DNA of 59,718 nucleotides, from NCBI GenBank assembly GCA_902514645.1, contig CABXRO010000006.1, forward strand, positions 1 through 59,718. Direction: 5' to 3'. Positions within the stretch are counted from its first letter, which is position 1; the number at the start of each line of letters is the position of its first letter. This document shows, piece after piece, positions 389 to 55,059 of the stretch. The translations under genes were made by a program, and so were the position numbers. The DNA is from an uncultured SAR86 cluster bacterium (GTDB lineage: Bacteria > Pseudomonadota > Gammaproteobacteria > Magnimaribacterales > AG-339-G14). The notes beneath the pieces are model-generated. The model made no database searches, was not told where the DNA came from, and saw only the letters and a list, made by a program, of their open reading frames with translations.

Positions 389-2152
389 ATGTCAGAAGTA
401 ATAAAGATAGCAAATTGCAGTGGATTTTATGGAGACAATCTGTCCATCGCAAAAAAAATGGTTGAAGCCGGACCAATAGATGTTTTAACGGGAGATTATC
501 TTGCTGAATTGACGATGACTATTTTGTATAACCAGAAAATGAAAAGGGGAGAAGATCTAGGATATGTAGGAACCTTTTTAAAACAATTTAGAGATGTAGC
601 AAAACTCTGTGATGACAAAAAAATTAAGATTGTATCTAATGCAGGAGGTTTGAATCCTGCTTCAATGGCAGCTGAAGTTGAAAATATAATCAAAGAATTG
701 AAGCTTGATTTGAAGGTCGCTTACATTGAAGGTGACGATCTGATGCCTAGATTTGATGAATTATCTTCATCTGGAGAAAAGTTAAAAAATATTGATAAGA
801 ATAACGATCTTTTTTCTTATGAGAAAAAACCACTAACTGCGAATGCTTATTTAGGAGCTTGGGGCATTAAAGAGGCTCTAGATAATGGCGCTGATGTGGT
901 CATTTGCCCGAGAGTTACAGATGCTGCTGTAGTAATAGGTCCTGCAGCATGGAAATTTAATTGGTCAAGAAATGATTATGATCAGCTTGCCGGAGCCCTT
1001 GCAGCTGGACACATAATCGAATGCGGTGCTCAAGCCACTGGCGGTAATTATTCTTTTTTCAAAGAAGTTCCTTCTTTTAAAGACATTGGTTATCCAATAG
1101 CCGAAATAAACCAAGATGGTAGCTTTATAATTACTAAACATCCAAATACTGGAGGATTGGTTTCGGTTGGCACGGTCACAGCACAGCTTCTCTATGAGAT
1201 AGGTTCGCCTGCTTATGTAAATCCAGATGTTGTTTCCCATTTTGATACTTTAAAAATTGAACAAGAGTCTGAAGATAGAGTATTTATTTCTGGTTGTAGA
1301 GGAAGTAGTCCACCTAAAGATCACAAAGTTTGTATTAACCTTGCTGGAGGTTTTAGAAATGGTACTGAGTTGCTTCTAACAGGTTTAGATATTGAAGAAA
1401 AAGCTAAATTAATTACTGAAACTATTTTTGATTCGGTTGGTGGTAAAGAGCAGTTTGATAAGGTAGATATACAGTTACACAGAACTGACAAAGAAAATCC
1501 AGAAAGCAATGAACAGGCACAAGCCTTTCTTAGAATTGATGTGATGTCTCAAAACTCAGATTTAGTGGGAAGATTATTTAGCGCTAAAATAATTGAATTA
1601 GCTTTAGCAAACTTTCCAGGCTGGACAGGAAGAAGTGGAGTTGTCCCTAGCGGTCCTTATATTGAGTATTGGCCAGCTTTGGTTGATAGTAAATTTATAA
1701 AGGAAAAAGTGCATTTTGATGGCAAGATCATTGAAGTTATTCCAACTAGCCAACTGGGCTTTGAAGAAGTTTATTATCAAAAGGAACCTGCTGAAGTAAA
1801 ACAAATAGCTGAAAATCCTGATACGGAAATATTTTTTGGAGATATCTTTGGCACCAGATCTGGAGATAAAGGGGGTTGCGCTAATCTTGGTGTATGGAGT
1901 AAAAATCCAGAAGCTTATGGATTTTTATTTGATTTTTTAACTGTTGATAAATTGAAAGAATTACTTCCAGATTTAAAATCTTTTGAAATTGATAGATTTG
2001 AATTACCCAATATTTTATCTTTAAATTTTTATATTCATGGAATTTTGCAAGATGGAGTTTCTTCATCAACAAGGATGGATGGGCAGGCAAAGTCGTTAGG
2101 GGAATATTTAAGAGCAAAAAAAATAAATGTACCTAAAATTATTTTAAAATAA
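389..2152 (+). CDS. AtuA-like protein (DUF1446, acyclic terpene utilization family)
   Basis: This 587-residue protein has the usual AtuA length and layout: a large N-terminal DUF1446 domain with glycine-rich runs such as NAGGLNP, and a small C-terminal AtuA ferredoxin-like domain starting around residue 484 with the motif GTRSGDKGG. AtuA is needed for citronellol and geraniol catabolism in Pseudomonas, but its reaction is not established. The ATG follows the previous stop without a gap, and an enoyl-CoA hydratase gene follows after 6 bp. A carboxylase of the methylcrotonyl/geranyl-CoA type faces it, which supports a role in branched acyl-CoA breakdown. Whether the substrate is a terpene is inference. 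Confidence 0.85.
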   Translation: MSEVIKIANCSGFYGDNLSIAKKMVEAGPIDVLTGDYLAELTMTILYNQKMKRGEDLGYVGTFLKQFRDVAKLCDDKKIKIVSNAGGLNPASMAAEVENIIKELKLDLKVAYIEGDDLMPRFDELSSSGEKLKNIDKNNDLFSYEKKPLTANAYLGAWGIKEALDNGADVVICPRVTDAAVVIGPAAWKFNWSRNDYDQLAGALAAGHIIECGAQATGGNYSFFKEVPSFKDIGYPIAEINQDGSFIITKHPNTGGLVSVGTVTAQLLYEIGSPAYVNPDVVSHFDTLKIEQESEDRVFISGCRGSSPPKDHKVCINLAGGFRNGTELLLTGLDIEEKAKLITETIFDSVGGKEQFDKVDIQLHRTDKENPESNEQAQAFLRIDVMSQNSDLVGRLFSAKIIELALANFPGWTGRSGVVPSGPYIEYWPALVDSKFIKEKVHFDGKIIEVIPTSQLGFEEVYYQKEPAEVKQIAENPDTEIFFGDIFGTRSGDKGGCANLGVWSKNPEAYGFLFDFLTVDKLKELLPDLKSFEIDRFELPNILSLNFYIHGILQDGVSSSTRMDGQAKSLGEYLRAKKINVPKIILK

Positions 2153-2158
2153 GATGAA

Positions 2159-2950
2159 ATGACAAGTAAAAAACTTTCAATAGAAAATCTAACTTTTCAA
2201 GCAACAAAAATAGATGTTTCTAACCACATTTTAACTATTATCCTGAACAGACCCGAAAAGAAAAATGCGCTAAACAATGTAATGATGAATGAAATTAATT
2301 ATGCTCTTGCATATGCCAAACAAGAAAGAGCCATAAGAGTTGTAATTATTGCAGCGGAAGGAGATGTTTTTTGTGCAGGAGCAGATTTAAATAGAAAACA
2401 GGAAGAATCTAACGTTCCTAGACTTGAGGGATCAGACGACATAAGTCTCTCAATTAGGCATTTGTATAAACCTGTTATTTGTAAGATTCAAGGATCGGTT
2501 CATGCTGGTGCTCTTTTGATGGTTACAAATTGCACTCATGCAATTGCTGTTGAATCTGCAAAGTTTTCGGCTCCTGAAATTCTTCGTGGGGTTTGGCCTC
2601 ATATGGTTATGGCAGGATTATTTAGAGTTATGCCTAAGAGAGTTGGATTAGATTTTTGTATGCGTGGTCAAGCGATAGATGCTAATAAAGCTCAAGAGTG
2701 GGGATTGATTAATGAATCTGTAAAATCTGAAGCTTTAGACGAAACTGTTGCTAAATTAGCAAAGGATTTAGCCAGTCTTGCACCCGGCACAATGCAATTT
2801 GGTCTTGAAGCATATATAAATCAAGATAATATGAATTTTGATGAAGCATTACCTTATTTAGGAAAAAAAAGCGCTGAAACTTTTGCTGGTCCTGATGCCA
2901 AAGAGGGAATTGCTGCTTTTTTAGAGAAAAGAGAGCCCAAATGGGATTAA
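2159..2950 (+). CDS. Enoyl-CoA hydratase/isomerase (crotonase family)
   Basis: The 263-residue protein shows the crotonase pattern: an early ILNRPEKKNAL segment, the oxyanion-hole stretch FCAGADLN near residue 70, and the second oxyanion loop near residue 112 (GSVHAGALL), followed by SAPEILRG with the acidic residue expected near the active site. It would hydrate an enoyl-CoA; AtuE and LiuC, next to carboxylases in the terpene and leucine pathways, are the obvious comparisons. It follows the AtuA-like gene after 6 bp in the same operon. Its last four bases are shared with the stop of the converging carboxylase gene. The exact substrate is not visible. Confidence 0.85.
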   Translation: MTSKKLSIENLTFQATKIDVSNHILTIILNRPEKKNALNNVMMNEINYALAYAKQERAIRVVIIAAEGDVFCAGADLNRKQEESNVPRLEGSDDISLSIRHLYKPVICKIQGSVHAGALLMVTNCTHAIAVESAKFSAPEILRGVWPHMVMAGLFRVMPKRVGLDFCMRGQAIDANKAQEWGLINESVKSEALDETVAKLAKDLASLAPGTMQFGLEAYINQDNMNFDEALPYLGKKSAETFAGPDAKEGIAAFLEKREPKWD

Positions 2951-4866
2951 TCCAAAACAACTAAGGTCTGGCCATTTTCTACTTGTTCACCTTTAGAAAC
3001 TAAAATATTTTTAATTTTTCCAGAAGACGGAGCACTTACTTTATGCTCCATTTTCATCGCCTCTAAGATAATCAAAGTATCTCCTTTTTTAACGGAGGAA
3101 CCTTTTTTAATTTGAACTTCTACTACCTTTCCTGGCATTGGTGCATTTAGACCACCTTCAATTGTTCCTGAATCTTTAACTTCAAATTTAGGTAAAACAT
3201 TAAAAAGCAAATCTCCCTTATAGGTATGAATCAATAAAAGATTATCTTCAAAAGATACTTTTGATCTAAGTCTGGATCCTGATATTTCTACATCTATGAA
3301 ATTATCTTGCCAATCATAAACGGTTGCTAATTCTGAATCAGAAAATTCAAACTTACCATCTCTTGATTTTTTATAGTTAATAACGAAATTTGTATCCTTT
3401 AAAGAAAGTTTAACTTCCTGAAAAGGTAACCTTGCATTGTTCCATCCTGAATCCATATTGGTTAAAACAGAAGCGTTTTCTCTATTCAATCCTTGAATCC
3501 ATAAACTTGCTGCTTTTGCATAATTTTTTATTTCTTCTGCGGAAAGGTCTACTTCTCCACTTAGTTTTTCTTTTTCGATGAAATCAGTAGTAGTAGCACC
3601 TTTTAGAAATTTCTCAGATCTTAAAATAGCTATTAAGAATTCTCGATTTGTTTGCATTCCACCAAAGTGACTATTTTCTAAAGCAAGAGCCAATTTTTTT
3701 GCAGCTTCTGTTCTAGTTTCTCCATAAGAAATAACTTTAGCTAGCATTGGATCAAAATCAGGAGTAATGATTGATCCTGATTCAATTCCTACATCCCATC
3801 TAACGAGAGGATCATCTGCCGGTAAAAAAGAAATCATTTTTCCAGTTACTGGTAAAAAATCATTATTTGGATCTTCAGCATACAGTCTCACTTCTATAGA
3901 ACTTCCAAACCAATCTATATCGGATTGGTCAAAACCTAGAGACTCACCTTCGGCTATTCTGAGCTGTTCTTTTACAAGATCAATTCCGGTAACTTCTTCA
4001 GTAACAGGGTGTTCAACTTGAAGCCTAGTATTAACCTCAAGAAACCAAAATTCTTTTGTCTTTTCATCAACCAGAAATTCTACAGTCCCAGCCGATTCAT
4101 ACTTTAATTTGGAAGCTAACTTTATGGCAGCATCTCCCATCTTTTCTCTCATGGAATCATCAACCATAGGCGAGGGCGACTCTTCAACTACCTTTTGATG
4201 TCTCCTTTGAATTGAACATTCTCTTTCTCCTAAATGAACCAAATTACCATAGGAATCACCGAGGATTTGTATTTCTATGTGTCTAGATTTTTTAATGTAT
4301 CTTTCTAAAAAAACTCTCTTATCGCCAAAGCCACCCTCAGCTTCTCTCTCTGCAGAAGCAATGGATTCTTTCAAATCCTTTGAACTTTTGACAATACGCA
4401 TACCCTTACCACCACCTCCTGCGGCAGCTTTAACAAGAATAGGATAACCAATTTTGTTTGCATCTTTAGCCGAAGAACCTGAAGGTAAGATGGGGACACC
4501 GGCTTTTTCTGCTAATGTTTTAGCAGTAATTTTATCTCCCATTTTTTTTATGGCATTTGCAGAAGGACCTACCCACTTCATTCCTGCCTTTTTTACATTA
4601 TTAGCAAAATTAGCATTTTCAGATAAAAATCCATATCCAGGATGAATTGCATCTACATTATTTTCTTTAGCGATTTCTAAAATTTCTTTAGCATTAAGAT
4701 ATGAATCTGAAAGTTTAAAAGACTGATCTGCCTCTCTAACATAAGGAGTATTTTTATCAGCCTCTGTATAAATAGCTACACAGGTTATTCCCATGTCGTG
4801 AGCACTTTTTATGATTCTACTTGCGATTTCTCCTCTGTTTGAAATTAACAATTTTTTAATTGTCAT
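2947..4866 (-). CDS. Acyl-CoA carboxylase alpha subunit (biotin carboxylase plus BCCP; MCC/GCC type)
   Basis: A 639-residue subunit carrying an N-terminal biotin carboxylase with RGEIA (residues 11-15), HPGYGFLSE (75-83) and the ATP-grasp glycine loop GGGGKG (150-155), then a C-terminal biotinyl domain with EAMKM, where Lys605 is the expected biotinylated residue. It carboxylates biotin with ATP and bicarbonate and hands the carboxyl group to the beta subunit. The size and the biotinyl domain on the same chain match LiuD (methylcrotonyl-CoA) and AtuF (geranyl-CoA). The start overlaps the beta-subunit stop as ATGA, indicating translational coupling. The AtuA-like neighbour favours but does not prove the geranyl branch. 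Confidence 0.9.
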   Translation of the reverse strand: MTIKKLLISNRGEIASRIIKSAHDMGITCVAIYTEADKNTPYVREADQSFKLSDSYLNAKEILEIAKENNVDAIHPGYGFLSENANFANNVKKAGMKWVGPSANAIKKMGDKITAKTLAEKAGVPILPSGSSAKDANKIGYPILVKAAAGGGGKGMRIVKSSKDLKESIASAEREAEGGFGDKRVFLERYIKKSRHIEIQILGDSYGNLVHLGERECSIQRRHQKVVEESPSPMVDDSMREKMGDAAIKLASKLKYESAGTVEFLVDEKTKEFWFLEVNTRLQVEHPVTEEVTGIDLVKEQLRIAEGESLGFDQSDIDWFGSSIEVRLYAEDPNNDFLPVTGKMISFLPADDPLVRWDVGIESGSIITPDFDPMLAKVISYGETRTEAAKKLALALENSHFGGMQTNREFLIAILRSEKFLKGATTTDFIEKEKLSGEVDLSAEEIKNYAKAASLWIQGLNRENASVLTNMDSGWNNARLPFQEVKLSLKDTNFVINYKKSRDGKFEFSDSELATVYDWQDNFIDVEISGSRLRSKVSFEDNLLLIHTYKGDLLFNVLPKFEVKDSGTIEGGLNAPMPGKVVEVQIKKGSSVKKGDTLIILEAMKMEHKVSAPSSGKIKNILVSKGEQVENGQTLVVLD

Positions 4867-53715: not shown

Positions 53716-53825
53716 AAAGAAGGGGGCGTCTATTTATTTGGGAAAGAAAAGGTAACCCCTCCAGAAGATTAATTCAACTTTTTCCATTTATAGGTTTTAT
53801 TTCTACTATTAAAAAAATATTGTAT

Positions 53826-54953
53826 TTAATTAAATAAATCATCTTCATGAAGTAAATAATTAATCACTTCAGGAATATTTTTTTTAAAATTAAAAAAACC
53901 TTTTTTTGAAAATTGCCAACAAAAAATATCTTCTTTTAAACCAATGTAATGTAATTTCGAAGAATTTTTGATTTTTCGATTCAAAAAATCCATATTTTCT
54001 CCAACTGATGGGTATATCACATCAAATTCTTCATTTAATTTATTAAAGCCATCTTCATTGATTATTTGAGAATTAGATATTTCTTTTGCAAACGCCTCTA
54101 GAAGAGCGTTCTTAAAATCTAAGACTTTTTTACTTAATTTTATGTTTCTATTTTCATTATCAAGTAACAATAAGAAAACATTTTTGTAATTTTTAAAAAA
54201 AGAGAATCTTTGGCTGAGATTTAAATCTGATTCAAACAAAACTATGTTTTTATATTTTTGTTTAGTATGTAATTCCTTAACCTCTTTTATGGAGTAAATT
54301 TTATGATTCTCCAGAGGCGAAGCATTTTCATTTAGAGCAGTATTCATATATCTCTGATTGGTAAATTTCCTTATGTTGGATTCTCTTGCAATGTAATTTT
54401 TACCTTGTGTTTGAATGCCAGCAACCCATCTCCAACTCAAAGTATTCGAGGCAGCATCCCCATCAAATAAATATTTCATAAAAAATCTAGCACCAAGCTC
54501 CCAAGGTAGATTAAGAGTAAATATCCATATGCTCGCAAACCACATTCTGGTGTGATTGTGTAAATAGTTTTCTGTTTTTAATTCATTAACCCAATCATCG
54601 AAACACTCGATTCCTGTCTCACCGTTTATTGCCCTCTTATAATCTTCTTCATGATAATTTGGAGTTGAGTTTACAAAATCTTTCCAAACGTCAGGTCTAT
54701 GTTCCAACCAACCTTTCCAGTAAACACGCCAAAATACCTCTTGTATAAATTTATCTACTTTCTGAAAATTGTATTGAGAAAGAATTTCTCTAATGAGATC
54801 GTATTCATTAATAATTCTGTGAGAAATATATTTTGATAAATTTGATATATTCTCTCTGGAATTGGGACCAAAATCATAATTTCTTTGCGAAGAATAATCT
54901 TTCAATCCTTTTTGAATAAAATCTAGTTTGTCTTTGTTAGCCTTTTCATACAT
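53826..54953 (-). CDS. Photolyase/cryptochrome-like FAD protein with FAD domain at the N-terminus
   Basis: A 375-residue protein whose first ~205 residues match the photolyase FAD-binding domain: FWRVYWKGWL (74-83), YLHNHTRMWFAS (130-141) and DGDAASNTLSWRWVAG (164-179). The usual N-terminal antenna domain is absent upstream. Instead residues ~230-375 form an alpha/beta-type region that begins KNIVLFESDLNLSQ, similar to the start of a photolyase antenna domain. This suggests a permuted or rearranged photolyase; the domain match at the C-terminus is inference. It could repair UV lesions or sense blue light. The gene is single and divergent from psiE. Confidence 0.75.
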   Translation of the reverse strand: MYEKANKDKLDFIQKGLKDYSSQRNYDFGPNSRENISNLSKYISHRIINEYDLIREILSQYNFQKVDKFIQEVFWRVYWKGWLEHRPDVWKDFVNSTPNYHEEDYKRAINGETGIECFDDWVNELKTENYLHNHTRMWFASIWIFTLNLPWELGARFFMKYLFDGDAASNTLSWRWVAGIQTQGKNYIARESNIRKFTNQRYMNTALNENASPLENHKIYSIKEVKELHTKQKYKNIVLFESDLNLSQRFSFFKNYKNVFLLLLDNENRNIKLSKKVLDFKNALLEAFAKEISNSQIINEDGFNKLNEEFDVIYPSVGENMDFLNRKIKNSSKLHYIGLKEDIFCWQFSKKGFFNFKKNIPEVINYLLHEDDLFN

Positions 54954-55059
54954 ATCCTTATTTTAAAGCTCTACCTCATATCTCTTGATAAAATTTCAAA
55001 AATAATAATTCAATATAATTTTTATTTGCTAGATGTTAATAACTAGATAAACTTGATCT

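Follow-up and report, generated by a model that had tools for sequence, protein, structure and literature searches.

The SAR86 gene described here very probably encodes a NewPHL-type CPD photolyase, in which the FAD catalytic domain comes first and a shortened, probably antenna-derived Z-domain comes last. The architecture itself is already known from the inverted photolyases NewPHL/Phr7, described since 2020; what is new is modest, namely the reach of NewPHL into streamlined ocean bacteria and the evidence for an antenna origin of the Z-domain. The NewPHL class was reportedly described by Emmerich in 2020 from Dinoroseobacter shibae and Methylobacterium mesophilicum, with the Z-domain said to play a sealing role over the FAD site. 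The same work is said to have proposed that the class stands near the root from which photolyases and cryptochromes arose. In the present analysis, the architecture, the residue invariance, the purifying selection and the clade were observed directly.

A Complete Gene Beginning with the FAD Domain

The window, i.e., the whole stretch of 59,718 nucleotides that was analysed, lies on contig C6. The genome measures 0.94 Mb, and its nearest named relatives are SAR86 cluster bacteria. The gene, annotated as a complete inverted-topology photolyase gene of the NewPHL type, occupies positions 53826..54953 on the minus strand and encodes 375 amino acids. It starts with ATG, and an in-frame stop lies just 5' of this codon (open frame of 378 aa), hence no concealed N-terminal domain is fused to the protein. 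More than 100 relatives of similar length and domain order were found in SAR86, SAR11, SAR116 and other Alphaproteobacteria, which argues that the ORF is not a frameshift or an assembly artefact. A truncated canonical gene or a frameshift was ruled out on both grounds, the relatives and the upstream stop. In comparison with four close congeners, dN/dS was approximately 0.05-0.07 for the FAD domain and 0.16-0.19 for the C-terminal domain, low values indicating purifying selection on both parts.

The helical FAD/catalytic domain (residues 1-212; 54318..54953, minus strand) was delimited with the use of Pfam, phmmer, VIA and conservation. The Pfam family FAD_binding_7 covered residues 69-194 with an E value of 1.3e-20 and was the sole Pfam match above the cut-off in the 375-aa protein; the last part of the profile (positions 133-203) was unmatched. 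In the phmmer search against PDB, residues 11-187 aligned with residues 213-395 of the E. coli photolyase 1dnp, within its FAD domain. Since the alignment runs straight to this domain, the SAR86 protein has no antenna counterpart ahead of it. Model residues 1-212 matched photolyase 1iqr in VIA with Z 16.0 over 206 residues at 2.7 Å. The earlier note had proposed that the ORF opens straight with the FAD domain, and Pfam, the phmmer alignment to 1dnp and the upstream stop all agree with it. The domain is followed by residues 213-225 (54279..54317, minus strand), a portion of the variable interdomain linker that had no secondary structure in the AlphaFold2 (AF2) model and low conservation in the alignment.

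Invariant Residues of the Catalytic Domain

Residues E72, W75, N133, R136, M137, W151, D164, D166, N170, W174 and W176 were invariant in 137 of 137 sequences. Counted by E. coli equivalents, 16 positions were identical throughout the same set: Y222, S235, L237, S238, E274, W277, R278, N341, R344 and M345, and likewise W359, D372, D374, N378, W382 and W384. In class I photolyases these 16 positions are known to bind FAD, contact the CPD or transfer electrons, and we take them to do the same here. Among the contact residues checked, the exception was H134 in place of the DNA-contacting R342 of E. coli, a clade-typical change found in 135 of the 137 sequences. Residues 1-225 hold one Cys only (C117), so there is no four-Cys Fe-S site.

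Both W174 and W151 (W382 and W359 of E. coli) were present in all 137 sequences, whereas a Trp counterpart of W306, the third Trp of the triad, was absent from the phmmer alignment with 1dnp. This combination is in line with the D. shibae NewPHL, for which PMC8948257 reports a Trp dyad, and at the residue level the SAR86 protein fits a Trp dyad instead of a triad, as judged from the alignment.

The same residues bear on the idea that the protein kept the FAD domain but lost DNA repair, and now serves as a light sensor (cryptochrome) or as a flavoprotein with some other non-repair role. Contig C11 of the source genome encodes a canonical class I photolyase and contig C1 a second FAD_binding_7 protein, and these two might cover repair. 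However, all of the checked class I CPD-contact and FAD residues except R342 are invariant, the protein has no signalling tail and no partner domain, and the FAD-first/Z-domain proteins of D. shibae and M. mesophilicum are reported in PMC9426592 as CPD photolyases acting on single-stranded DNA. A sensor is therefore improbable, and a repair enzyme is the reading we retain.

Structure and Origin of the C-Terminal Domain

The C-terminal alpha/beta domain, antenna-like and corresponding to the Z-domain (residues 226-375; 53829..54278, minus strand), was defined by AF2, VIA, hhalign with controls, and conservation. The AF2 model of the whole protein, built with 54 sequences, had pLDDT 92.6 and pTM 0.91. 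It comprised helices at residues 2-197, the linker, and alternating strands and helices at 236-373, with the C-terminal units mostly at pLDDT 85-98. Residues ~230-371 were predicted as a five-unit alpha/beta fold, and the domain modelled alone gave the same beta/alpha pattern at pLDDT 86. In the model, KNIVLFESDLNLSQ forms the first predicted strand of the domain (E236-239). The C-terminal end of the domain carries a conserved motif D342...W346....KGFFxFKKxIP (342-361), common to the SAR86 protein and the alphaproteobacterial members.

Among 1000 PDB chains, the top VIA match of the C-terminal domain alone was to residues 2-124 of photolyase 8ijy, its antenna domain (Z 7.2, 104 residues, 3.2 Å), followed by CARF domains at Z 6.4; a VIA Z below 8 is suggestive and lies below the level of a reliable fold match. 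A sequence search of the domain against Pfam and PDB returned nothing meaningful: the C-terminal part had no Pfam match above threshold, and PF00875 was absent from the whole protein. A match to SCP Ca-binding proteins spanned 35 residues and was taken as chance.

A rival reading is that the domain is not a moved antenna and was recruited from an unrelated Rossmann-like source. Besides the missing Pfam match and the VIA scores (7.2 for the antenna, with CARF at 6.4), recruitment would fit the Foldseek search, in which the C-terminal domain hit only generic Rossmann-like proteins, none with E below 0.001. It would also fit the window-side C-terminal profile, which alone reached P 0.044 against the antenna. 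In hhalign against nine canonical proteins, the window-side profile was not significant (P 0.17). Against recruitment stand the comparisons of larger profiles. The hhalign alignment of 38 alphaproteobacterial C-terminal domains with 39 canonical antenna domains was in register over 97 columns, with P 1.8e-4, whereas the same 38-sequence profile gave P 0.31 against the canonical FAD domain. The antenna value was better than those of reversed profiles (P >= 0.27), of 26 unrelated families (P 0.015 at best, in a family that is apparently Rossmann-like), and of an accepted pair used as a benchmark, antenna/DPRP-N (P 8.5e-4). The marine, window-side C-terminal domain was linked to the alphaproteobacterial one at P 1.3e-11, and the top-ranked structural match was a photolyase antenna. 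DPRP N-terminal domains, in a set including one odd Persicobacter protein, did not match the Z-domain (P >= 0.07).

In hhalign, KNIVLFESDLNLSQ was paired with 'LFFFTNDLRLDDN', the first strand of canonical antenna domains. When all sequences were pooled, the antenna match was weaker (P 0.0026), with KYKNIVLFESDLNLSQ placed on that first antenna strand (LFFFTNDLRLDDN). The likeness of KNIVLFESDLNLSQ to the first antenna strand, pointed out in the earlier note, is thus reproduced, weakly so in the full-family set. The note had offered a circular permutation or a FAD domain with a new partner. The inverted order holds, and an unrelated new partner is unlikely in view of the antenna profile (P 1.8e-4) and the VIA top match to 8ijy. 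The outcome that would have told against the note, a predicted fold of residues 225-375 with no relation to the antenna domain, did not occur: AF2 beta/alpha units, the 8ijy antenna at Z 7.2 and the in-register profiles point the other way. Altogether, the evidence favours an antenna reading of the C-terminal part without proving it. We put recruitment of an unrelated domain at roughly one chance in a few, and derivation of the Z-domain from an antenna domain is probable, a good inference and not proof.

How this could have come about is less certain. A canonical antenna domain may have moved from front to back, perhaps via adjacent separate genes, and then been reduced to a pigment-free lid, with one marine branch since exchanged among SAR86, SAR11 and SAR116; we find this full scenario evenly balanced. 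The separate-gene stage takes the Synechococcus phr4/phr5 genes and a Deinococcus gene pair as models. If the Z-domain is a displaced antenna, this would argue for descent of the class from a two-domain ancestor, contrary to the near-origin proposal for NewPHL.

Distribution and Phylogeny

A search for proteins with the same order, suggested in the earlier note, yielded the relatives mentioned above. The genome scan gave at least 576 candidates, 80 of which were kept. These came from SAR86, SAR11 (Pelagibacteraceae), SAR116 (Puniceispirillum), Rhodobacteraceae and other marine groups, and nearly all had 370-390 aa and the same order. Within the SAR86 order the gene was patchy: it was present in most members of the source genus and in a second genus of the same family, and was not found in two other genera or in the other families of the order. 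In one genome of the source genus (G002, C1:526929-528051), the gene lies in two overlapping pieces with internal stops and looks broken.

Full-length orthologues including the Z-domain were found in Roseobacteraceae, Caulobacteraceae, Sphingomonadaceae, Rhizobiaceae and Azospirillaceae. Orthologues located on plasmids of Ruegeria, Asticcacaulis, Novosphingobium, Peteryoungia and Niveispirillum had the full length and the C-terminal motif. Identity between the SAR86 protein and the alphaproteobacterial members was ~32%. The Ruegeria protein had matches, mostly full length, in 35 of the 397 Pseudomonadota genomes drawn. Viral contigs held no relative, and phage records matched the FAD domain only, at 25-26% identity; a viral origin was rejected on these two results.

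In the FAD-domain tree, all proteins of the same architecture formed one clade (100/100), apart from canonical photolyases. The SAR86 protein fell inside a marine subclade of SAR86, SAR11 and SAR116 sequences (100/100). The gamma- and alphaproteobacterial sequences were not separated in this subclade, and this suggests, at the level of the tree, exchange of the gene between the two groups.

Genomic Context and Proposed Function

The neighbours of the NewPHL gene in the window, encoding PsiE, GST-like, ferritin-like and EcKL proteins, did not point to a partner gene at this locus. Window positions 53716-55059 were compared with the locus of a congener (L005, 3018-6160): the genes for a 142-aa membrane protein and an alpha/beta-hydrolase-like protein were absent from the window flanks, and the order was otherwise kept. 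The FAD_binding_7 protein of contig C1, the third member of the photolyase family in the source genome, is encoded at C1:99424-100632 (L183), with an open frame of 479 aa, FAD_binding_7 at 154 bits and only weak DASH similarity; its counterpart in a sister genus is separated from the NewPHL gene by ~0.9 kb. SAR11 loci (e.g., L016, 5203-7036) hold a small photorepair cluster, in which the NewPHL gene adjoins the gene of a DCC1-like thiol-disulfide oxidoreductase, and a photolyase of DPRP type (Fe-S (6-4)-like) is encoded on the opposite strand.

The protein is probably a Trp-dyad CPD photolyase for ssDNA; the CPD specificity, ssDNA preference, dyad function and sealing role are carried over from characterised NewPHLs. 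In the mechanism that we propose, FADH- would be bound by the N-terminal catalytic domain, and a UV-made cyclobutane pyrimidine dimer, preferably in ssDNA, would enter the pocket of E72, W75, N133, R136 and M137. Blue/UV-A light would drive an electron to the dimer, the dimer would be split and the electron returned. Two tryptophans, W174 and W151, would form the chain that re-reduces oxidised FAD. As for the C-terminal domain, it probably holds no light-harvesting pigment but lies against the catalytic domain as a cover over the FAD site.

None of the 61 genomes searched in the SAR86 order encoded a DASH protein over the curated cut-off, which is consistent with NewPHL filling the ssDNA role. 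SAR86 genomes without the NewPHL gene were also without DASH, weakening this test of a NewPHL-for-DASH substitution. SAR86 and SAR11, which rank among the most numerous cells in sunlit ocean water, have tiny genomes, yet many of them keep this photolyase beside a canonical one. If dimers in ssDNA are repaired by it, this would point to a need for such repair, at replication forks, in transcription or in DNA uptake, for which the gene would be worth its cost in strong sunlight.

Comparison with Known Photolyases

The SAR86 protein resembles the class I CPD photolyase (E. coli PhrB, 1dnp) in the FAD and CPD-contact residues and in the fold of the catalytic domain. They differ in that PhrB has an N-terminal antenna and a Trp triad, whereas the SAR86 protein has the FAD domain first and a predicted dyad. 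It fell outside class I by the profile PRK10674 (60.7 bits against a cut-off of 506), with PF00875 absent, and it is not a DASH protein by TIGR02765 (43.1 bits against a cut-off of 317).

It was also weighed whether the protein is a short photolyase-like (SPL) protein or an inverted (6-4) photolyase of the Phr4/Phr6 type. In Phr4/Phr5 and Phr6 of Synechococcus/Cyanobium (PMC9426592), the FAD domain stands ahead of the photolyase domain, as in the SAR86 protein, and the same paper reports Phr7 as closest to Phr4/Phr6. SPL proteins begin with the FAD domain as well, and some authors pool NewPHL and SPL (PMC13274461). However, Phr4/Phr5 and Phr6 carry an Fe-S cluster site, in Phr4/Phr6 with four Cys according to PMC9426592, and a recognisable DNA photolyase domain. 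The SAR86 protein has neither, C117 being the sole Cys of its FAD part. SPL proteins are defined in PMC9649867 by an absent alpha/beta domain and are reported to contain an Fe-S cluster, whereas in the SAR86 protein the C-terminal alpha/beta domain is present and the Cys cluster absent. In the FAD-domain tree, SPL-like proteins of Deinococcus (L117) and Persicobacter (L118) fell outside the NewPHL clade on long branches. We consider either identification highly improbable.

The Deinococcus sp. QL22 plasmid (L117) carries at 1851-2624 a photolyase-like gene whose 257-aa product has the FAD domain only and ends in a Cys cluster; a 173-aa 'hypothetical' gene (2621-3142) overlaps it by 4 bases. 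The 173-aa protein matched antenna domains with PF00875 E 2.3e-4 (below cut-off) and hhalign P 8.5e-7. In such 'short' photolyases, the antenna may be encoded by a gene of its own downstream, as in phr4/phr5. The Persicobacter plasmid (L118) encodes at 1734-3032 a FAD-first protein with a C-terminal part ending SGYYPSFFAYWKKARKYL, outside the NewPHL clade, which may be a Phr6-like fusion in Bacteroidota.

The closest likeness is to NewPHL/Phr7. Phr7 of Prochlorococcus has an N-terminal FAD domain and a C-terminal Z-domain (PMC9426592), and PMC13274461 uses the class name NewPHL for this inverted domain topology. The SAR86 protein likewise has an N-terminal FAD domain, no antenna ahead of it and a C-terminal alpha/beta Z-domain. 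It is without Fe-S cysteines and has the Trp dyad positions and the conserved Asn near FAD that PMC12083526 lists for NewPHL. In the FAD-domain tree, it was joined at 100/100 support by proteins of the same architecture from Roseobacteraceae, Caulobacteraceae and others. These orthologues, from groups close to those of the characterised NewPHLs, served as close proxies for A8LJA9 and M7YZC8 in judging membership. Unlike the hosts of those enzymes, its host is a streamlined marine SAR86 gammaproteobacterium, and the protein belongs, together with SAR11 and SAR116 sequences, to a separate and well-supported marine subclade.
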